A stretch of 64,000 bases of DNA from Campylobacterales bacterium. Lineage in GTDB: Bacteria; Campylobacterota; Campylobacteria; Campylobacterales; Sulfurimonadaceae. Location of the stretch: the NCBI GenBank assembly GCA_026390165.1, contig JAPLGM010000014.1:1-64000 (forward strand), given 5' to 3'. Of this stretch, positions 49,000 through 60,657 are shown in pieces; position 1 is the first letter of the stretch; the number at the start of each line of letters is the position of its first letter. The position numbers and the translations under genes are program-made. The notes below the pieces were generated by a model. The model searched no databases. It was not told where the DNA came from and saw nothing but the letters and a program-made list of their open reading frames with translations.

Positions 49000-49740
49000 T
49001 CAGAGTCTACTGAGCAACTCTTCGACAAAACGGCGGTAATCTTTGATCCCACGGGAGCGTTCTTCATCGCTGACGGTAGGATTACCCCCTTCAAACTGGT
49101 TTGAGAGCCTAATATCAATCCCTATTGGGGGTAAAAGTTTCTCGGCTCCAAACTGTGTTTTGATTTTTGAAATAGCCTCACGATGCTCTGGTATATGGGG
49201 ATTAACCATTACGGGCAATATCCAGACATTCGGAGTGGATTGACCATTAAACGAAGCATTCTGGTAGATCGCTCGCATCATTTGACCTACAGCAACCACA
49301 CCCAGATGGTGAGGGATAAAAGGGATCACAACAGCGTCCGCAACTTCAAGGGCATTTTTGAGGAGAGAATCAAAAGTGGGGGGGGTATCGATCACAACGT
49401 AATCAAAAAATTCATGAATACTCTCCCCGTAAAATCGATTTTTCAGTATCCCTCTCAAGTCACCATTTTCATACACATCAAAAAATTCGGTCGCAGGGGA
49501 GAGGGTGAGCTGATCGTACACCGTGGGGACAAACGTCTCACTCAGGGTTTTACCAAAAAAAATGGAATGAACCCCATTATCAAAAGAGGCATTCGAACCC
49601 ACCCCCATAGAGGCATGAGCTTGGGTGTCAAAATCGATTAACAGCACCGATCCCAAGCGAGCAAGTTCACATGCAAGATTGACGGCAGTCGTCGTCTTGG
49701 CCGAACCCCCTTTACGATTACTAACAACAATAGTTTTCAT
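49000..49740 (-). CDS. ParA/MinD-type ATPase of a chemosensory cluster
   Basis: 246 residues with the deviant Walker A 'KGGSAKTTTAVNL', including the signature lysine (K10) and the phosphate-binding lysine (K15), Walker A' 'LLIDFDTQAHASM' and Walker B 'YVVIDTPP'. ParA-type ATPases next to chemotaxis genes (PpfA in Rhodobacter, ParC in Vibrio) place signalling arrays so both daughter cells receive one. Here it is flanked by STAS, cheW and cheA, and the receptor is soluble, so the same role is likely. No ParB gene is seen; the receptor itself may supply the activating peptide. Confidence 0.85.
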   Translation of the reverse strand: MKTIVVSNRKGGSAKTTTAVNLACELARLGSVLLIDFDTQAHASMGVGSNASFDNGVHSIFFGKTLSETFVPTVYDQLTLSPATEFFDVYENGDLRGILKNRFYGESIHEFFDYVVIDTPPTFDSLLKNALEVADAVVIPFIPHHLGVVAVGQMMRAIYQNASFNGQSTPNVWILPVMVNPHIPEHREAISKIKTQFGAEKLLPPIGIDIRLSNQFEGGNPTVSDEERSRGIKDYRRFVEELLSRL

Positions 49741-49749
49741 GGTCTCTCT

Positions 49750-50019
49750 TTACCCACAGTGTTCATCACTCACATCGAATCCTTCGCACACTTTTTGATA
49801 CAGCTTCATCTCTGGTCCAAAGTGATATTGGGCAGTATAAAGTTTTTGATACGCAAACAGCAGTTGCAATACCCCCAAATGGAGATCATTGCATCCGCTA
49901 AAATCGAATACGAGAGGTTCAGGAGAGGAGAGTTGTAAATAGTCCCGCAATACACCGATCGCATCCTCATAAATAACCCCATCAAACGTTACCGTATTAT
50001 TTTCCATTACCATAGACAT
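49750..50019 (-). CDS. STAS-domain protein
   Basis: 89 residues of the STAS fold with 'PLVFDFSGCNDLHLGVLQLL'. In anti-sigma-antagonists the residue after DxSG is a phosphorylated Ser or Thr; here the segment is FSGCNDL, so phosphorylation is doubtful. It sits 3 bases after cheW and 9 before the ParA-type gene, with AAAGGAG upstream of its ATG, which also ends cheW. It may serve as a docking or stability module of the array. Confidence 0.7.
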   Translation of the reverse strand: MSMVMENNTVTFDGVIYEDAIGVLRDYLQLSSPEPLVFDFSGCNDLHLGVLQLLFAYQKLYTAQYHFGPEMKLYQKVCEGFDVSDEHCG

Positions 50020-50022
50020 TTT

Positions 50023-50466
50023 TTACTCCTTTACGGGCATAGAGACCGATTTAATCACATTGACCAACCGCTTGGAAAGTTCTACAATCCCCTCAAGCTC
50101 GACAAAATCACACCCATCTTCATGTTGATCCAAACGCTTTAACATAGAGGGATCTAAACTAACAATATCTTCAATTTGATCTACCTTTATCCCAAAAAAA
50201 CTCTCTTTGGTCTGATACATCAACAGCTTTTGTGATTTTTGCGATTTGTCCCTACGCAAATCTTCTTCCAATAACTCCAGCCCCATCATTGCACGGAAGT
50301 CTACTACCTTGCTCACCTTATTCTCATACGACATCATCCCCTCGATAAAGGGGTGGGAATTGGGGATAGGGGTGATAGAGGGGACTTGAACAATCCGCTG
50401 AATCGAGGCAACTTGGAGCGCATAATAATTGCCACTCACTGTAAAAATAATATAATCGTTCACCAA
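50023..50466 (-). CDS. cheW: CheW coupling protein
   Basis: 147 residues, a single CheW SH3-like domain ('YYALQVASIQRIVQVPSITPI', 'IEGMMSYENKVSKVVDFRAM'). It links CheA to receptors. It lies 11 bases after the CheA stop. The N-terminal VNDY start is at a GTG or ATG; the ATG at 50466 is used. Confidence 0.85.
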   Translation of the reverse strand: MVNDYIIFTVSGNYYALQVASIQRIVQVPSITPIPNSHPFIEGMMSYENKVSKVVDFRAMMGLELLEEDLRRDKSQKSQKLLMYQTKESFFGIKVDQIEDIVSLDPSMLKRLDQHEDGCDFVELEGIVELSKRLVNVIKSVSMPVKE

Positions 50467-50477
50467 AAGTCCTTTAC

Positions 50478-53255
50478 TTAACTGGCGTGCGCATGATTAT
50501 GGGCAAGAACATGAGAAATCCCTAGAATCCCAAGAGGATCGATTGCCATGATAATCTGCCCATTCCCCAGTAATGCTGTACCGCTAAAGATCGGGTGGTG
50601 TTCCATAATCCCCTCAAGCGGTTTTTGAACAACATCCAGCTGACCTAGCAAATCATTGACCACAACAGCCAGCAAATTCCCTTTGATGTTCAACACCACA
50701 ATAGGAAGGGCTTTGTTTATCAATGCTTTCTCATCCAGCATACTTTTTGCAAACAAGAGGGGGATAACTTCACCACGTAAATAGATAAACGGCTCATTTT
50801 GAAGATACTCGATTTTCGATGATTCAATTTTTACCGTCTCTGACACGCTGTCCATTGGGAACCCATAGTGGACACCACTCATCATCACGTGAAGGAGTGA
50901 TGTCACTGCAAGAGATACAGGGATGGAGAGATAAATCGTCGTCCCTTGATTCGGGAGTGTCTTGATGCGAATCGTCCCCCCAAATCCTTCAATCGACTTA
51001 CGGACAACATCCATCCCCACACCTCGACCGCTGTATTCGCTGATTGTTTCCGCCGTAGAGAGTCCGGGGAGCATCACCAGCTCCGCTTTTTGCTCATCGC
51101 TCATTCCATCAATCTGATCGAGAGTCAACAACTCTTTTTCCAACACTTTTTGGACAACGCGATCAATATTAATTCCCGCACCGTCGTCTTTGATTTCGAT
51201 AATAATCTTATCACTTTGAGGATAGGCTTTAAGGGTGATCAACCCATCCGGATTTTTCCCTTTTTGTGCTCTCACATCGGGAAGTTCGATACCGTGATCA
51301 AGGGAGTTTCGCATAATATGGATCATCGGATCAGCGAGCATCTCGATCATATTCTTATCCAGTGTCGTATCTCCCCCCTCCATTGTTAGCATTACCCGCT
51401 TGTTAAGATTTTTCGAAATATCGCGTACCAATTTAGGGTAACGGTCAAAGACATACGAAATAGGGAGCATCCGCATCGACATAATCAAATCTTGAAGCTG
51501 TTCGGTGAGACGGTTAATAAAGGTATATTTCTCCATAATCGCCCGCTTCGTCCCTTCATGGCTCATCTCATGCACCCCATCGGCAAGATAAGGGAGTGAA
51601 TTTTTGGCAACCAATAATTCCCCAACGACATTCATTAGATGATCAATGGACTCTTGCTCGATTTTTACCGTTTTTCCAATAACACTTTTTTTGACTCCGC
51701 CACTATGAAGATCCAATTCCACTTTTACTTCTGGCTGAGTAGGTTCTGGGGCACTGTTCGTGCTTGGCTGTACCGATGGTGATGTCACTCTCGGTATCTC
51801 CACTACATTCCCGCTCGGAGTTGAAATGATTTTTTCGGGGACACTTACGACGTGAACTTCTTGGATTTGCGCTGATTTTTCTTCTAACCCAAGCTCTTGG
51901 CGTAACCACGTCATCATCGTCTCTCTCGACCTAAACTCAGGGGGCATTGTCTCACAATAGCCTTTAAGATAATGGGTCAATATCCCCATCACCCTCTCCG
52001 TTACGATAGGATCATCCAACCATTCAAGCGTCTGAAGCTGTTGTTTTAACACGGCTTGAAGTTTCTCAACACCATTTTTATCGAGAGTTGGAAGAGAAGT
52101 TTCATTCTGAACATCCATAACTGCATCGTGACTCTCTTCAAGAGAACTTTCACACGGTGTCTCGTCTTGAAAAGTAGGATCATAGAGATAAACACTCCCC
52201 TGAGGCAGCTGCACAAAAAATGATTTTAATAACCCTAAATCTCTTATCTCAACCATCCCTATAAGATCAAGGAGTCGATGAAGCTGCACGCTTTGGATCG
52301 TATCTTCCCCAATCAATGGTAAGGTGTTGGTGATGCTTTGGACGATTGAGGAGTAATTTTTTTCATCGATTTGAAGCGTGCATTGTGTTCCAAGTTCTTT
52401 GAGGAGATCGAGAGTATGCCCTCTCTCCCCCTCATCAATTTGCAATAATGTAGCAATATCGAGGGGAGTAAACGTCAGCTCATCGACAAAGTTAAAGAGT
52501 GCGTCGCTAATCTCCTCATACGTGGCATAGATAAATGCTGTCATACTCAATCGTAACAACAACCCTTCAGGATCATCAAGTCCTGAAAGAAGCGATTTTG
52601 CACTGTTCTCAGACATACACGAATGGATCCCAACTACTTTATCTCCCAGCAGGGAGAGGGTATAAACAGGATCGTTTCCGTAGACCATACACGATTCATC
52701 AATGTCGAATACCACCGCATAGAGCTGTTCGCTCAAACAAAACGCTTCATCAATCTCTCCTTGTTTAAAGGGGATTGTTTGAGAAAATGTCCGTAAAAAT
52801 GGCATAGGAAGATTCACGATACTGCGTACATCCTTATGAAGTCTAAAAGGGCAATTCCACTTTTGTACTTCGCTAGTTTTTCCCATTAATCCACTCAGCT
52901 CTTGAGAAATAGCATCAATGCGTGATTCGTCTGCCTGAACAATATCCCCACTCTCTTCGGCTGCTTCGATCAGATTCACCACCTCATCAAATGCGTTAAA
53001 TAAAGACTCAATCATCTCTTCTCTAAAAACAATCTTCCCCGCACGAAGCATATCAAGGAGATCTTCCGCATGATGGGTAATCCGCTTAACCGCTTCAAAC
53101 CCCACAATTCCTGATCCCCCTTTGAGGGTATGGGCAGCACGAAAAACAGAGTTGAGCAGTTCAGGATCATCCCCGCCTATTTTATCAATATTCTGATCAA
53201 TAAAGGCGAGATTTTCTCTGGCTTCCAGTAAAAATTGTTCGAGTAAGGGGTTCAC
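50478..53255 (-). CDS. cheA: CheA histidine kinase with long central region
   Basis: 925 residues from a GTG at 53255, chosen because AAAGGAG lies 6 bases upstream; the frame runs further back but overlaps the cheY gene and lacks a site. HPt domain 1-110 with the phosphorylated His in 'FRAAHTLKGGSG'. A ~400-residue middle (about 130-540) has no recognisable P2 CheY-docking domain. Dimerisation domain follows, then the HATPase with N-box 'HIMRNSLDHGIELP' and G-boxes 'DDGAGI' and 'GRGVGMDV', and a CheW-like C-terminus. Cytosolic core of the pathway. Confidence 0.92.
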   Translation of the reverse strand: MNPLLEQFLLEARENLAFIDQNIDKIGGDDPELLNSVFRAAHTLKGGSGIVGFEAVKRITHHAEDLLDMLRAGKIVFREEMIESLFNAFDEVVNLIEAAEESGDIVQADESRIDAISQELSGLMGKTSEVQKWNCPFRLHKDVRSIVNLPMPFLRTFSQTIPFKQGEIDEAFCLSEQLYAVVFDIDESCMVYGNDPVYTLSLLGDKVVGIHSCMSENSAKSLLSGLDDPEGLLLRLSMTAFIYATYEEISDALFNFVDELTFTPLDIATLLQIDEGERGHTLDLLKELGTQCTLQIDEKNYSSIVQSITNTLPLIGEDTIQSVQLHRLLDLIGMVEIRDLGLLKSFFVQLPQGSVYLYDPTFQDETPCESSLEESHDAVMDVQNETSLPTLDKNGVEKLQAVLKQQLQTLEWLDDPIVTERVMGILTHYLKGYCETMPPEFRSRETMMTWLRQELGLEEKSAQIQEVHVVSVPEKIISTPSGNVVEIPRVTSPSVQPSTNSAPEPTQPEVKVELDLHSGGVKKSVIGKTVKIEQESIDHLMNVVGELLVAKNSLPYLADGVHEMSHEGTKRAIMEKYTFINRLTEQLQDLIMSMRMLPISYVFDRYPKLVRDISKNLNKRVMLTMEGGDTTLDKNMIEMLADPMIHIMRNSLDHGIELPDVRAQKGKNPDGLITLKAYPQSDKIIIEIKDDGAGINIDRVVQKVLEKELLTLDQIDGMSDEQKAELVMLPGLSTAETISEYSGRGVGMDVVRKSIEGFGGTIRIKTLPNQGTTIYLSIPVSLAVTSLLHVMMSGVHYGFPMDSVSETVKIESSKIEYLQNEPFIYLRGEVIPLLFAKSMLDEKALINKALPIVVLNIKGNLLAVVVNDLLGQLDVVQKPLEGIMEHHPIFSGTALLGNGQIIMAIDPLGILGISHVLAHNHAHAS

Positions 53256-53307
53256 ATTTTCTCCTTTATATACACCGATGACGTAACGCTTGTTTTTTTC
53301 ATTTTCA

Positions 53308-53673
53308 TTAGATTTTGAGTAATAGCTGAAGATATCCTTTGAGGGCATCAGGCTTGATGGGTTTGGTTTCAAAGAGATTGGCCCCGACTTTGAACGCTTC
53401 AAGCTTATCGGTCGATTCCTCCTGCGTCGTAATCATCATAACGGGAGTCCCCTTGTGTTGTGGCTGTCGTCTCAATTCACTCACGAACGAATATCCATCC
53501 ATCACGGGCATATTGACATCCACGAGATAAAGATCAATCTCATTGCTCAGTGTCTTTTCAAGGGCTTCCATCCCATTTTCCGCTTCCAGAACGGTTACCC
53601 CTAAATCCCGCAGAATCGCTCCGTGATAACTTCGTACCGTTTTTGAATCATCGACTACCATAACTGTTGCCAT
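53308..53673 (-). CDS. CheY-like single-domain response regulator (first)
   Basis: 121 residues, one receiver domain: acidic 'VDDSKTVRS', phospho-Asp in 'LVDVNMPVMDGYSF', conserved 'MITTQEE' and 'ETKPIKP'. Likely carries phosphate from CheA. It lies directly upstream of cheA in the operon and 11 bases downstream of the CheZ-like gene. A second CheY is 374 bases upstream. Confidence 0.9.
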   Translation of the reverse strand: MATVMVVDDSKTVRSYHGAILRDLGVTVLEAENGMEALEKTLSNEIDLYLVDVNMPVMDGYSFVSELRRQPQHKGTPVMMITTQEESTDKLEAFKVGANLFETKPIKPDALKGYLQLLLKI

Positions 53674-53684
53674 ATCTTTTTCTC

Positions 53685-54044
53685 CTAAAAAAACTCTACG
53701 CCATCATCAAAATCGTGATGCTGTGTTTTTCCGCCAAAAGCGGAGTGCTTCTCCTGTGCCCTTTTGAGCACAGAACTTAGCTTATCATCCATCTCATCTA
53801 AACCTACTTCTTTATCGTCCAAATGAGCTTGCATCGTCTCAATCGCCTCGATGGTCGCACTGAGTTGTTGTGCAATAATATCTTGGTATTGCATCACCTC
53901 TAGCATCTCATCATCAAGACGGAGAGAACTTTTCTCAATAAACTTCACCAACTGAAGATGTCCCTCTCTCGTTAGGTCAATGGTCTCACGTTCTACCGTT
54001 TTAATATGCTCCAGCAATCTATTGAGTGTTTGTACAAACTGCAT
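53685..54044 (-). CDS. CheZ-like phosphatase candidate
   Basis: 119 residues, largely helical. The segment 'MQYQDIIAQQLSATIEAIE' carries the D-x3-Q pair (D55, Q59) used by CheZ to activate water on phospho-CheY, and the C-terminus 'DFDDGVEFF' is acidic-aromatic like the CheY-binding tail of CheZ. It is half the length of classical CheZ but the order helix-catalytic pair-acidic tail is kept. It sits between two cheY genes. I infer that it dephosphorylates one or both. Confidence 0.65.
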   Translation of the reverse strand: MQFVQTLNRLLEHIKTVERETIDLTREGHLQLVKFIEKSSLRLDDEMLEVMQYQDIIAQQLSATIEAIETMQAHLDDKEVGLDEMDDKLSSVLKRAQEKHSAFGGKTQHHDFDDGVEFF

Positions 54045-54047
54045 GGA

Positions 54048-54419
54048 TTACGCCAAACGTAAAACACGCGCTATTGCTTGCTTAAGCTGTGCTGGATTAA
54101 AAGGCTTCACAATCCATCCCGTCAACCCAAACGCCTTTCCTTGCTGCTTAAGTTCATCACGGGTTTCCGTTGTAAGCATCAGCACGGGAGTACGGATAGT
54201 AGAAGGGACCGTACGCAACGCCTGCAAAAATTCAAATCCGTTCATGACGGGCATATTCATATCGGTAATAATCAAATCGGGAGTCATCCCCTCTTTAATG
54301 TCACGCAACGCATCTGTAGCACTTAGGTATTGCTTTACCGTAATGGGCATCGTATCCGTCACCATCCGCGTAGAGGCAAGGGCTGTCTCTGAATCATCAA
54401 CAAATATAACTAATGGCAT
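54048..54419 (-). CDS. CheY-like single-domain response regulator (second)
   Basis: 123 residues. 'VDDSETALASTRM', phospho-Asp in 'ITDMNMPVMNGFEFL' and 'WIVKPFNP'. Differs from the other CheY in the helix 4-beta 5 region ('KAFGLTG'), so the two may have different targets. Next to the CheZ-like gene and 12 bases from cheR. Confidence 0.88.
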   Translation of the reverse strand: MPLVIFVDDSETALASTRMVTDTMPITVKQYLSATDALRDIKEGMTPDLIITDMNMPVMNGFEFLQALRTVPSTIRTPVLMLTTETRDELKQQGKAFGLTGWIVKPFNPAQLKQAIARVLRLA

Positions 54420-54431
54420 TTTTTTATTCTC

Positions 54432-55262
54432 CTATTTCTGATAAATGAGTGTAGACTCAATCTTTTTTGCTTTAAATACTGACGTAATACGGCTCATATA
54501 CTCCGCATGACCGAGCAATACATAACCACCCGTATTGATCATATCGTAAAAAGTCATAGCAACCTCTTTTCGGCTTGAATCATCAAAATAGATGAGCATA
54601 TTACGCGAAAAAATAACATCAAATTTACCCAATTGACGCATTTGCATTTTATCAAATACATTCGCAACTTTGAAATCAACCGTACCAATAAGATCGTCAA
54701 TTAACTCATACCCCAACGTCCGTTTTCTAAAATTTTTTGCCAAAACTTTAGGGGGGATGGCGTGAATGGAACGCTCAGAATATTTACCTGCCTTGGCTTT
54801 TGTAATAACCGTACTGTCAATATCAATACCAACGACTTCAATATCTCGATCTTCAATGAGTCGCCCCTCTTCGATGAGATGCAAAATAATAGAGTAGGGT
54901 TCTTCTCCCGTTGAACACGGAGCACACAGAATACGAATCGTTTGCTGACGCGCTCTTGAGGCATGAAGTTCGGGTAAAATACGGTTAACCAATACTTCAA
55001 ACTGCTCTTTTTCTCGATAAAAGTAGGTCTCATTGACCGTTACCGCATTCATCAGCTCCTGAAACTCTGCCCCATCTTTATCTTCAAAACGGAGGGTATA
55101 AAAATATTTACGAAATGAATCTATCCCGATAGCTTTGGCCCGATTATCAATGTACTTAGCCAATTTCTCAAAATGTTTATCGACTTCTAAGAATATCCCC
55201 GTTTTACGATAGATATACTCCGCAATTTTTCCAAAATCAACGTTCGATAAAAGAGATGCCAT
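54432..55262 (-). CDS. cheR: CheR chemoreceptor methyltransferase
   Basis: 276 residues with the N-terminal helical domain and the SAM-binding domain ('APCSTGEEPYSI', 'VVGIDIDSTVITKAKAG', 'FDVIFSRNMLIYFDDS'). It methylates receptor glutamates. Full length for CheR. The C-terminal 'TLIYQK' is typical of the family. Confidence 0.94.
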   Translation of the reverse strand: MASLLSNVDFGKIAEYIYRKTGIFLEVDKHFEKLAKYIDNRAKAIGIDSFRKYFYTLRFEDKDGAEFQELMNAVTVNETYFYREKEQFEVLVNRILPELHASRARQQTIRILCAPCSTGEEPYSIILHLIEEGRLIEDRDIEVVGIDIDSTVITKAKAGKYSERSIHAIPPKVLAKNFRKRTLGYELIDDLIGTVDFKVANVFDKMQMRQLGKFDVIFSRNMLIYFDDSSRKEVAMTFYDMINTGGYVLLGHAEYMSRITSVFKAKKIESTLIYQK

Positions 55263-55265
55263 CCT

Positions 55266-55892
55266 CTACCCCCGAATGCTGCGAATAGCATTATCAATCG
55301 CGAACTCAACATACGGATCATGAAAACGACTTTTGACATTCTCTAATAAAGGGATATCTCCCATCTCTCCAATTTCTGCCATATAATCTACCGCCGTCAT
55401 CGCCACATTAATATCACTCTCATGTTCAAGAAGCTCACAAAGCATCTCTCTCGATTCAGAGAAAGTAACATCCCCAAGGACATTAATAGCAAAAATACGG
55501 AGATCACGATCATCTCCAATCAAAAATTTAACAATGTAATATTTAATAGCATCGCCATAGCTTTGAAGTATCGTAATTCCCAAATTACGAATATAGGCAT
55601 TACGTATTTTTAGCAAATCCATCACCGATTCAATGGGAGCACTTTTGGGATCAATATTACTCAGCAACGATGAAATATAACTCGCCATATCTTTGTGGAT
55701 ATAAGGGTTGTCAATCAACAACTCTACCAGTTTTTCTCCCCCACCCTCAAGTAGACTCATTTGATCAACCGCATACGTTTGGGCATCAAAATTATCTCTT
55801 TGATCTAAATAATACTCTACCGCCTCATCCAATGTCTCCAGATCAGGGAACTCTTGGACAAGAGGTGCCGTATGGTTTTTTATCAGTGCCAT
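55266..55892 (-). CDS. HEAT-repeat protein of the chemosensory cluster
   Basis: 208 residues of paired helices; repeats such as 'MDLLKIRNAYIRNLGITIL' and 'FAINVLGDVTFSESREML' show the HEAT periodicity. It is squeezed between cheR (3 bases) and cheB. A scaffold or receptor-modification helper role is inferred; such proteins are often seen in chemosensory operons of this phylum. Confidence 0.7.
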   Translation of the reverse strand: MALIKNHTAPLVQEFPDLETLDEAVEYYLDQRDNFDAQTYAVDQMSLLEGGGEKLVELLIDNPYIHKDMASYISSLLSNIDPKSAPIESVMDLLKIRNAYIRNLGITILQSYGDAIKYYIVKFLIGDDRDLRIFAINVLGDVTFSESREMLCELLEHESDINVAMTAVDYMAEIGEMGDIPLLENVKSRFHDPYVEFAIDNAIRSIRG

Positions 55893-55901
55893 CTATTTCC
55901 C

Positions 55902-56963
55902 CTAACGCAATGTTTGCAATGTACGTATAATTTTTGGAAATGGTAGCTGCTGTGATACACCACCACGCTCGTATGCTTCTCTTGGCATTCCGTACACGGT
56001 AGCCGTCTCTTCGCTCTCACCGATGGTAAAACCACCTGCTTTTTTGATTTTTACCATTCCATTGGCACCATCATCGCCGATACCCGTCAATAATACTGCC
56101 GTAATCTGATCTCCTGAAAATACCTTGAGGGCGCTCTCAAACATCTCATCCGCACTGGGTTGGAAAAAACGGCTATTCTTGTTTTTCTCTTCCCGTATCA
56201 CTATTTTACCCGTCACTTTTTTGGCAAAATGGAGATGAACCCCCCCTCGAGCAATATAAACCAACCCATTAGAGAGCTCCATATGATCTTTAGCCTCCAC
56301 TACGGGCAACGTGCTCACCTTATCCAAACGCGTTGCAAATGCAGCAGTAAACTGTTCGGGCATATGCTGTACGATACATACCGCATACGGGAATCCTTTT
56401 GGTAAGGATCGGCATATCTGTTCTATCAATCCTGGACCTCCCGTTGATGCCCCGATCAATAAAATTTTAGTGACATCCTCTCCCGTTCCTGAACGTTCGA
56501 GACGCGCACTTTCCCGTACACGTACAGGACGTTCACGTTGAAGGGGGCGACGAGTAGCTATTCTTAAACGACGAGGAGAGATGCGGCTAAGGATCTGAAT
56601 TTTTTGAAGAATATCGTCACGGTTCTCACTTTTCCCAACATTCATCGTCCCCGGTTTTGCAATATAATCTATCGCCCCCAGTTCAAGTGCCTCTATCGTA
56701 ATTTCCGCACTCTCTGTTGTTAAAGAGCTTATCATCAAAATAGGGGTTGGACGTACCGCCATAATCTTTTCAACCGCCGTAAGTCCATCCATTATAGGCA
56801 TATTGATGTCCATCGTGATAACATCGTACTGAGTATCAGTCGCTTTTTGAACGGCTTCGGCACCATTACGTGCCGTCTCGATCTCAAAGCCAAGGGTTGC
56901 AATAATCTCCGTCAGTTGTTTTCGAACGAGTGCTGAGTCATCAGCAATCAGCACTTTTTTCAT
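55902..56963 (-). CDS. cheB: CheB protein-glutamate methylesterase
   Basis: 353 residues: receiver domain (phospho-Asp in 'TMDINMPIMDG') joined to a methylesterase with the triad Ser in 'LIGASTGGPGLI', His in 'VQHMPEQF' and Asp in 'GIGDDGANGM'. Removes receptor methyl groups. Its start overlaps the stop of the triple-CheW gene by 4 bases. Confidence 0.94.
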   Translation of the reverse strand: MKKVLIADDSALVRKQLTEIIATLGFEIETARNGAEAVQKATDTQYDVITMDINMPIMDGLTAVEKIMAVRPTPILMISSLTTESAEITIEALELGAIDYIAKPGTMNVGKSENRDDILQKIQILSRISPRRLRIATRRPLQRERPVRVRESARLERSGTGEDVTKILLIGASTGGPGLIEQICRSLPKGFPYAVCIVQHMPEQFTAAFATRLDKVSTLPVVEAKDHMELSNGLVYIARGGVHLHFAKKVTGKIVIREEKNKNSRFFQPSADEMFESALKVFSGDQITAVLLTGIGDDGANGMVKIKKAGGFTIGESEETATVYGMPREAYERGGVSQQLPFPKIIRTLQTLR

Positions 56964-58330
56964 TCTGCCCCTTTGATAAGCTTCGATATATCCGAATTAA
57001 AAAGGAGAACCAACCGTTTACCGCCATCGAGATGTAAAATATTTGAAAACATCCCCCCCTCACTCTCATCTACGTGCATCTGTTCATGGGTAATACTCAT
57101 CACATCACTCACCCTCTTGACGAAAAATCCGACCCTACCTTTGGGTGTATGACAAATAATTATTTTTTGATCTTCGTTAGTGGGAGCAATAATCCCTAAC
57201 CGTTTGTACAAAGAGCCAATCGTCACAATCTGCCCTCGGATATTAATCACCCCATCAACCATTGCAGGGGCATTCGCTATGGGAGTAACCGACGTCATAT
57301 CAATAATCTCTGCCACCTCTTCGATGTTAAAGGCGTACTCCTCATTTCCAAGCTGAAAAACAACGACTTCAACGACTTGAGCCTCTTTTTCATTGGTAGC
57401 TGCAATTTCATTGGTCACAATCAGCTCCTCATTACGAAGCAAAATTGCATCCAGCAACTCCGTTCCAATGAGGGAAATAAGTCTCTCCCCATGTTTAATG
57501 ATCTCAAAACTCTGGCTATTGTCTCTGCTCTCATGGATCACATCAAAATCACTTTGAGCAAATTCATGAATATCAACAATTTCATCAATAATAAGCCCAA
57601 CCGTTTTACCTTGACGCTCAACAATCATAATTCTATTTTTATCGCTAATGTGGGGGACAACCCTAGAATAACGGCGTAAGTCAGCAACCACAATAAGCTC
57701 TTCCCGTAAGAGCATCATCCCTTGTATCTCGGGATTTGAGCCCGCGATAGGGGTGATGGCACTATTAACATGTAAAATCTCACGAAGATTATCAATGAGT
57801 ATGGCATACTCTGCACCCCCCATTTTAAAAACGAGATAACGTTCATTACTTTGGGTAAACCGTTTGATTTCTGTACTGTTTTTTTCACTCACACTCTGGA
57901 CATTCACCGTTACTTTTTGTATACACCGTATCGCATATTCCAAATCTACGACCTGAATCAGCTCATCCCCATGATGGACAACCGCGACAATCACCTCTTC
58001 ACGAGAATCCAGATATTCAATTTTATCGGGATCTATTTCCAAAGAAATTCCCACTTCATCTACTAATAAGGAGAAGCTATTTAGGGGAGAGATGAGGGTA
58101 ATAAGTCGATTCTTTTGACTCTTCCTCTCACATTTTTGGAGTCCGAGTAACGAGTTGAAATCCAAGACAGTAACAATATCTCCCCCCACTGCACACAATC
58201 CGCATACTTGAAAAGGGCTTAATGCCAATGCCGTAATATCCGGGACACGAAGAATTTGACCAATATAAGAGGTGGAGATACCAAAAGCAATTCCACCGTG
58301 ACGTACTATCAAAATTTCTTCGATACGCAT
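56960..58330 (-). CDS. Triple CheW-domain scaffold protein
   Basis: 456 residues made of three CheW-type domains in tandem: 1-130 ('YIGQILRVPDIT'), about 155-290 ('YAILIDNLREILHVN', 'EIQGMMLLREELIVVADLRR') and about 320-445 ('YAFNIEEVAEIIDMTSVTPI'). There is no receiver domain, so it is not CheV. Three CheW modules in one chain could join several receptors to one CheA. The first domain is the most divergent. It starts 5 bases after the receptor gene. Confidence 0.85.
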   Translation of the reverse strand: MRIEEILIVRHGGIAFGISTSYIGQILRVPDITALALSPFQVCGLCAVGGDIVTVLDFNSLLGLQKCERKSQKNRLITLISPLNSFSLLVDEVGISLEIDPDKIEYLDSREEVIVAVVHHGDELIQVVDLEYAIRCIQKVTVNVQSVSEKNSTEIKRFTQSNERYLVFKMGGAEYAILIDNLREILHVNSAITPIAGSNPEIQGMMLLREELIVVADLRRYSRVVPHISDKNRIMIVERQGKTVGLIIDEIVDIHEFAQSDFDVIHESRDNSQSFEIIKHGERLISLIGTELLDAILLRNEELIVTNEIAATNEKEAQVVEVVVFQLGNEEYAFNIEEVAEIIDMTSVTPIANAPAMVDGVINIRGQIVTIGSLYKRLGIIAPTNEDQKIIICHTPKGRVGFFVKRVSDVMSITHEQMHVDESEGGMFSNILHLDGGKRLVLLFNSDISKLIKGAE

Positions 58331-58335
58331 ACGAA

Positions 58336-60219
58336 CTATCCTTGTTGAAGTTCGTCAGCCATCACAGCAAGCTCTTCAACCCCCTCTGAGATATGACTGA
58401 CTGTCTCGATAATAAGTTCGCTCGCTTTGCGTGACTCTTGTGCATTTCGTGCAGAAAGTTCTACCGCTTTTTGAATTTCACTAATCCCGATAAGCCCTTG
58501 ATTTAACCCTTCGATATTTTGATCATTAATCGTCTTAAGCCCCGTAAAACGGTCCAAAAGATCAATCAGCATACTCGTAATTTTATCAATTTCATGGACA
58601 AGGGCAACGATTTGATCCCGTTCACCCTCTTGATTGACGAGAAGCTTCAACCACTCCGTACGTACCATATCAATCTCAGCATTCATCGATTCGATGGTAT
58701 CATTAATTTTTTCCGTATTGGATTCAGAATCTTTTGCCAAATTACGAATATCGGCACTCACAACCGCAAACCCTTTACCAAAATCTCCCGCACGCGCCGC
58801 TTCAATCGACCCGCTAATCGCCAACATATTAAGCTGAATAATACTGTTAGAGATACTTCCGACTGTTTTATCCACATTACGGGTCTCTTTGACAATCACA
58901 TCAAGCTCACCTTTTGCAGATCCCCCTTCTATCATAGAGGCGCTAAAATCATTTCCGATCCCCGTCATTTGCCCTTTAACATCAGCAAAAGAGACTTTGA
59001 GCAGATCAAAATTTCGACGGGCAATTTCGATTAGCTTACTAATGTCTTTAGAGGCACTAACTCCTTGTTCAAAGAGCTCTTTATTGGTAATAGCACTTTG
59101 ATTCGTCGCTTGTGACGCCGCTTCGATTTGGTTGAGTCCTGTTGTAACCTCTTTAAGAGAGCTTTGGATATCTTCCATTGAGGAGCTGATTGCATCGGCA
59201 GAAGCGGCAATCTCTTCCGCTGATTTCATGGTATCAGTAGAATATTTGAGCTCTTCTGAGAGGTTGTTCAGCTCTTTAATATCCTCTTCCGTTTGCATTA
59301 GTGAATTGCTTTGCATCTCAATACTGTTAAGGGTTTTTTCAACCGAACGGGCAATCTCACTCGACGCATCCGCAATATCTTTGCTTCCATCATTGATTTG
59401 GGCAATCGCGTGACTGAGACTTTGGGTGTAGCTGCTCATACTGCGTGCCGCTTCTACCGAATAAACAGCGATCTTCGTCAGCTCTTCCATTTTGAAACTC
59501 AGAGCACTCCCTCGCCCACCCGTTTGTTCGATAATATTCGTAGTAGCATTAATGCTTTTGATAATGTTATCAATGCTCTCTTGGATTTTATGCACCAAAC
59601 GAGAGATGAAATCGGCATTTTTTTCCGATTCACCCGCAAGGGCGCGTGTCTCATCGGCAACAACGGCGAACCCTTTTCCATGCTCTTTTGCACGGCTTGC
59701 TTCGATGGCGGCATTGAGGGCAAGAAGATTGGTTTGATCGGCAATTTTCGCGATAAATCCAACCGCTTCCCCAATGTTTTCAGAAGAGAGTTTAAGCTCT
59801 TCCGATTTTTTGGAGGACGTTTTAGCAACATTAACCGCTTTTGCCATCCGCTCTACAGAGGTATTAATCGTCCCTACTGACGCCATAATGTTATCCCCAG
59901 CTGCAAGCGTTGAGGAGATCACCGTATCGATACTGGATGTCATCCGCCCAATATTTGAACTGATAGAACGGACATTTTTAAGGGCTTGTTCACTTGCTCC
60001 GCTGTTCTCTTCGGCTGCTGTAGCAATCTGCTCCATTGAACTTTTAAGTTGTTCAATCGCACTGACACTTTCTTGCGCATTATCTAAGATCGTCGTTGCA
60101 ACCCCTGCGATACTCTCTGAAATTTGTTGCTGTTTTGCCAATGTACGCTGACGGCGTTTATCGGGTCCCACCCCTGCTACCGCCATGGGTGCAGACTCTC
60201 CTCGTCTAACTAGTGCCAT
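58336..60219 (-). CDS. Soluble methyl-accepting chemoreceptor with two signalling tips
   Basis: 627 residues, no membrane segment. N-terminal ~30 residues are basic ([19 protein letters not shown]). Two signalling hairpins are seen: residues 155-200, with the canonical tip '[17 protein letters not shown]' (161-177), and residues 457-500, with the variant '[17 protein letters not shown]' (461-477), exactly 300 residues apart. Each tip is flanked by long coiled-coil helices. So one chain appears to hold two receptor signalling domains, the second probably unable to activate CheA normally. It is encoded next to the triple-CheW gene and belongs to a cytoplasmic array. Signal input is unknown; the adjacent PAS protein is a candidate. 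Confidence 0.85.
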
Positions 60220-60228
60220 AATTTCTCC

Positions 60229-60657
60229 TTAATCCAGTGTTGCGTAAAGTGCTTCAGATTTTTTGATGTCATCACGTGAAGGTTTTATACGAATAGAGAC
60301 ATATTTTACGTTTCCATTTTTATCCGTAGAGCGCAAGACGGTGGCATATACCCAGTAATACCCTCCCCCTTTTCGGGCATTTTTTACAAATCCTGTCCAA
60401 AAGCCTTTGCTTTGAACATCTTCCCAAAGAGATTTAAAGGCAGCACGAGGCATATCAGGATGCCGAACGACATTATGCGGATTACCGAGTAGATCCGCCG
60501 CTTTCCATCCTGCTACTTTGGCAAACGAATCACTTACGTAGGTAATAATCCCTTTTTCATCCGTCTCCGATAATAAATACAAATCGTCATACAGCACCTC
60601 CCCGTCATCTAAAAACGTCAACCCATCGGTCTGAACTGTATCATTAACTTTTGCCAT
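60229..60657 (-). CDS. Aer-like PAS-domain protein
   Basis: 142 residues forming a single PAS domain of the Aer type ('GIITYVSDSFAKVAGW', 'NVVRHPDMPRAAFKSLW', 'YWVYATVLRSTDKNG'). Aer PAS domains bind FAD and sense redox state; the W and N positions of that pocket seem kept. It is first in transcription of the cluster and 9 bases before the receptor gene, so it is probably the sensor input. AAGGGGTAAGTT precedes its ATG. Confidence 0.82.
   Translation of the reverse strand: MAKVNDTVQTDGLTFLDDGEVLYDDLYLLSETDEKGIITYVSDSFAKVAGWKAADLLGNPHNVVRHPDMPRAAFKSLWEDVQSKGFWTGFVKNARKGGGYYWVYATVLRSTDKNGNVKYVSIRIKPSRDDIKKSEALYATLD

Follow-up and report, generated by a model that had tools for sequence, protein, structure and literature searches.

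Within the window, by which we mean the whole stretch of 64,000 nucleotides that was analyzed, an open reading frame on the reverse strand (58336..60219) encodes a cytoplasmic chemoreceptor of 627 amino acids with two signalling domains, which we assign to the DosM type because of its place in an F9-class chemosensory gene cluster. No hydrophobic stretch of 19 residues, and thus no transmembrane segment, was found in the protein, and Pfam recognized no domain in it other than MCPsignal (PF00015), which matched twice, with domain scores of 105.8 and 62.4 bits in the whole-genome search (curated cut-off 34.6) and 173.8 bits for the protein as a whole. Signalling domain 1 (residues 27–326; 59242..60141, best Pfam stretch at residues 137–284) and signalling domain 2 (residues 327–626; 58342..59241, the 62.4-bit match) repeat with an exact tandem period of 300 residues, and are preceded by an N-terminal tail (residues 1–26; 60142..60219), all on the reverse strand. 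The initial annotation had described two hairpin tips 300 residues apart, and both are found where it placed them: tip 1 at residues 161–177 (59689..59739) and tip 2 at residues 461–477 (58789..58839), with an Asn-to-Asn distance of exactly 300 residues. It had also described GKGFAVV and an adapted D-E/I-R-x-L-A stretch behind each tip; GKGFAVV indeed recurs at residues 181–187 and 481–487, and is followed further downstream by D-E-T-R-A-L-A or D-I-R-N-L-A. This Sulfuricurvum genome has 24 MCP genes, of which six, including the one for this receptor, lack a membrane segment; it alone among the 24 has two tips. With six CheA-type dimerization domains in addition to the 24 MCP genes, the genome (2.6 Mb) contains many chemosensory systems for its size.

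A complete F9 gene set

The receptor gene is part of a run of genes on the same strand (window positions 49000 to 60657), in the order PAS, dosM, triple-CheW, cheB, HEAT, cheR, cheY, a gene for a helical protein of 119 amino acids, a second cheY, cheA, cheW and parA. Directly downstream of dosM lies the gene for a triple-domain CheW (CheW3; 56960..58330), in which three CheW matches were found in one protein. It is followed by CheB with receiver and methylesterase domains (55902..56963), a HEAT-repeat protein (Pfam HEAT_2; 55266..55892), CheR (54432..55262), a first CheY-type receiver (Pfam Response_reg; 54048..54419), the 119-residue protein (53685..54044), and a second CheY-type receiver (Response_reg; 53308..53673). 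The CheA kinase (50478..53402) has Hpt, dimerization, ATPase, and CheW domains; its start codon is uncertain, and the listed open reading frame overlaps the upstream cheY. A single-domain CheW (50023..50466) and a ParA-family ATPase with AAA_31, CbiA, and MipZ matches (49000..49740) end the series. A search of the window revealed no exact sigma-54 promoter motif. Across phyla, relatives keep dosM, cheW3, cheB, HEAT, cheR, cheY, cheA, and often parA together.

Among chemosensory classes, only F9 has the DosM and triple-CheW architectures (PMC9321776). From the spacing, and thus not from class-specific models, we count arms of approximately 150 residues each and 43 heptads in all, where the F9 length class is 44H. 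The receptor is a further example of DosM and not a new receptor type. It shares its two tandem signalling domains and lack of a membrane segment with DosM (VC1403) of Vibrio cholerae, which belongs to the F9 class (cluster I) and whose gene likewise adjoins a triple-domain CheW and CheA, CheB, CheR, and CheY in the same cluster; this likeness is one of architecture and gene context, taken from the published description and not from an alignment with VC1403. The system described here differs in belonging to another phylum and in that dosM is immediately preceded by a stand-alone Aer-type PAS gene. What is new is the completeness of the set. For the Campylobacterota, the F9 sets listed in the surveys to date are only partial, without a kinase and response regulator of their own (PMC9321776, PMC9239204): Nitratiruptor and Nautilia have DosM and CheW3, but lack their own CheA and CheY (PMC9321776), whereas the cluster in the window combines dosM, cheW3, cheB, and cheR with its own cheA and cheY, and with the 300-residue spacing. 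Complete F9 sets of this kind recur in Sulfuricurvum and Sulfurimonas. The known distribution of the complete class is thereby extended to the Campylobacterota, and the literature view of this phylum as one with only partial sets needs to be amended. Most of what is known of DosM comes from a single organism.

Conservation of the spacing and of the second tip

To collect homologues, we searched for the most similar second tips, which yielded 80 loci. The Asn-to-Asn distance between the tips was exactly 300 residues in 74 of the 74 homologues with both tips intact, as well as in the query; two loci, one with 224 residues between its tips (L081) and one truncated (L092), were excluded here, since they are probably broken or incomplete. 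The spacing holds down to approximately 29% identity and among homologues from Campylobacterota, Alphaproteobacteria, Actinobacteria, Thermodesulfobacterium, and Eremiobacterota, and an alignment of 73 sequences contains not a single indel from residue 31 to about residue 626. Seven two-tip open reading frames from evenly sampled Pseudomonadota genomes likewise have 300 residues between the tips (the Pseudomonadota frame L150 comes from the same genome as L096). An exact spacing across phyla amounts to a sharp structural constraint, which can be tested against the thickness of the array. The initial annotation had called receptors with two tips rare. They are indeed uncommon, with DosM present in 16 of the 397 sampled Campylobacterota genomes, but they form an already described family. 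In the phylogenetic tree, of which we use only the placement of the Campylobacterota (the root is arbitrary, and the Pseudomonadota tip L156 is a wrong open reading frame), all sampled DosM proteins of this phylum fall in one grouping. A set of divergent Campylobacterota relatives (L037 and L127–L132) shows 27–30% identity, altered tips, and spacings of 293–299 residues, with two copies in some genomes; these loci resemble the partial F9 sets described in publications.

Tip 1 is near invariant across 52 homologues. Tip 2, in line with the initial annotation, does not have the NLLALNAA form; the implied degradation is not borne out, as relatives in several phyla share a form of its own, [IV]Q[LT]NMLA[IV][SN]GS[IV]EAARAG. 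Loci named Sulfuricurvum match tip 2 at up to 98%. Both the deviation from the NLLALNAA consensus and the lower score of the second domain (62.4 versus 105.8 bits) are what one would expect of an ordinary one-tip receptor carrying the decayed leftover of a gene duplication. Codon changes contradict decay: residues 450–510 show 0–8 non-synonymous versus 20–42 synonymous changes, and 0–3 versus 20–37 among the closest relatives, which indicates purifying selection on tip 2 equal in strength to that on tip 1. In addition, domain 2 is modeled as an MCP hairpin. In an AlphaFold2 monomer prediction based on 52 sequences (a single chain, in which a homodimer cannot be represented; mean pLDDT 87.6, pTM 0.57), residues 325–627 align with Thermotoga 2ch7_B (303 residues aligned, Z 13.5, 3.5 Å), and residues 388–608 align with Tsr 1qu7, where residue 479 corresponds to Tsr residue 391. 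Based on these alignments, the second tip is a real hairpin in the model, unlike the outcome that the initial annotation had set against its own proposal, in which one long antiparallel hairpin would contain the second segment as a helix without a tip. Given its conserved motif and the matching selection, we consider tip 2 to be specialized, and a decayed second domain to be very improbable.

The two domains differ in a further respect. Methylation-type E/Q pairs are found at the heptad-spaced residues 56, 63, 70, and 77 (59986..60054, reverse strand) of domain 1, and are kept in 85–99% of the homologues, whereas the homologue alignment revealed no equivalent series in domain 2. Since such sites are confined to domain 1, the sequences suggest that adaptation acts on one half of the DosM chain.

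Extended rod or folded-back chain

According to published cryo-tomography, DosM of V. cholerae is an elongated rod that carries a signalling domain at either end and spans two CheA/CheW layers, and it is apparently indispensable to the array (PMC7534058). The proposal in the initial annotation that a receptor with two tips could bridge two such layers is thus right in kind and already published, and the homologous DosM together with the same class-defining genes supports it for the receptor studied here, whose array is predicted from the gene cluster. The chain consists of two 300-residue MCP hairpins, arranged head to tail, without a membrane segment or a sensory domain of its own, and by homology its dimer would be a rod with a signalling tip at either end. 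Tip 1 would then join one CheA/CheW baseplate and tip 2 the other, so that the chain would fix the spacing of a cytoplasmic double-layer array and hold its layers together, with both termini and the domain junction converging at the array midplane. These three regions are, apart from the tips, the conserved blocks in the homologue alignment. By simple arithmetic, a straight helix of 300 residues measures approximately 45 nm, and the CheA/CheW layers of V. cholerae are approximately 35 nm apart (PMC3964821); the order of magnitude fits, with the kinase layers expected inboard of the tips, which makes this a consistency and not a test.

The structure predictions point in another direction. Confidence in the monomer model dips at residues 171–180, 321–330, and 471–480, and the helix is broken at residues 327–329 (STD; 59233..59241, reverse strand), the domain junction, and folded back. 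A second AlphaFold2 run on residues 200–460 alone (pTM 0.52) breaks at the same residues and also folds back, and this middle fragment matches antiparallel hairpins from end to end; as structure searches with it return mostly generic coiled coils, only the hairpin shape is used here. Structure matches that use both chain ends place the two hairpins side by side in the monomer model, and those to 8c5v_I and 3zx6_A (about 300 residues aligned, from model residues ~34–604) imply a compact four-helix bundle. Heptad mapping places a register shift of one residue at the junction (phase of the 3.5-residue period, residues 315–345), and hydrophobic core residues are sparse over approximately 10 residues at the conserved junction sequence ELK-x-ST[DN]xxKSAEE. 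Given the fold-back in both single-chain runs and the register shift, the sequence does not establish that the 300-residue helix is continuous. Taken at face value, these features describe a single chain that turns at residues 327–329 into a pseudo-dimeric four-helix bundle, with the canonical and the DosM-specific tip next to each other on one baseplate; such a molecule would not bridge the layers by itself, and the layers would be bridged by contacts at the conserved midplane end instead. However, packing one hairpin onto the other is the only way in which a single chain can bury both of its hydrophobic faces, the homodimer being unavailable to the prediction, and the pTM values are only 0.57 and 0.52. 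Because a single-chain prediction cannot show a dimer, the fold-back does not overturn the published rod, which was reported from cryo-tomography of V. cholerae DosM (PMC7534058). We therefore regard the folded-back chain as unlikely, though a serious rival. Our main reading, to which we assign a probability of roughly 0.85, is that the receptor is the DosM of a complete F9 system, with tandem hairpins that would form a two-ended rod bridging a double-layer array, and with a probable input from the PAS protein.

A candidate input and other cluster proteins

Almost no DosM has a sensory domain that would supply its input signal. In the window, the gene directly upstream of dosM (60229..60657, reverse strand) encodes a stand-alone Aer-type PAS protein of 142 amino acids, and ends 9 bp before dosM. 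Over 120 residues it matches the PAS domain of Escherichia coli Aer (8dik; E 1.5e-28), and the flavin-contact residues H53, N85, and R115 (Aer numbering by count) are aligned and identical. Of 39 Sulfuricurvum- and Sulfurimonas-type loci, 38 have the gene upstream of dosM, and the remaining one is at a contig end; the loci examined from other phyla and from more distant Campylobacterota showed no such gene next to dosM. Bipartite receptors that combine a small PAS protein with a transducer without a sensor are known from CetA/CetB (PMC12442639). In Campylobacter jejuni and Magnetospirillum, these likewise pair a small stand-alone PAS protein with a receptor that has no sensory domain; CetA, however, is linked to the membrane and has one tip, whereas the partner here would be a soluble scaffold with two tips. 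That dosM is immediately preceded by a conserved gene for a soluble Aer-type PAS protein is a new finding, and this protein is a candidate soluble FAD redox sensor partner of DosM. As a CetB-like protein it would dock onto the receptor and supply the input to the array; we put the odds of such a role at about even. In these free-living sulfur bacteria with a complete F9 cluster, the conserved soluble PAS protein is a specific candidate for the input to DosM.

Other proteins of the cluster are conserved as well. The gene of the HEAT-repeat protein is a constant member of F9 clusters across phyla, and the publications consulted here seem to describe no role for this protein. The 119-residue helical protein between the two cheY genes, conserved in 29 loci, has a QxQD..QQ motif (Q52, Q54, D55, Q59, and Q60) that is invariant in 29 relatives, and ends in IEFF-like residues in these relatives. 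At three F9 loci outside the Campylobacterota, open reading frames of 154–251 amino acids contain a QFQD..RQQ motif, and two of these end in VELF or IELF. Searches of Pfam, NCBIfam, and PDB sequences gave no match for the 119-residue protein, CheZ included; its D-x-x-x-Q spacing resembles the CheZ active site, and we consider the protein a possible CheZ-like phosphatase.

The N-terminal tail of DosM combines a MALV[KR]-type start, a linker, and a basic block before KQQQ. The start is conserved across phyla and the linker behind it varies in length, which suggests that the start is a putative short linear binding motif. We draw no link between this peptide and ParA, since clusters without a ParA match within approximately 9 kb have the motif as well. 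As for ParA itself, its gene lies next to the che genes in the window and beside cheA in many F9 clusters of other phyla, which suggests a ParA-type positioning of the cytoplasmic array. This would resemble the cytoplasmic sandwich array of Rhodobacter sphaeroides with TlpT and PpfA, where a ParA-family positioning ATPase is also encoded nearby, although TlpT has one signalling domain and the DosM described here has two.
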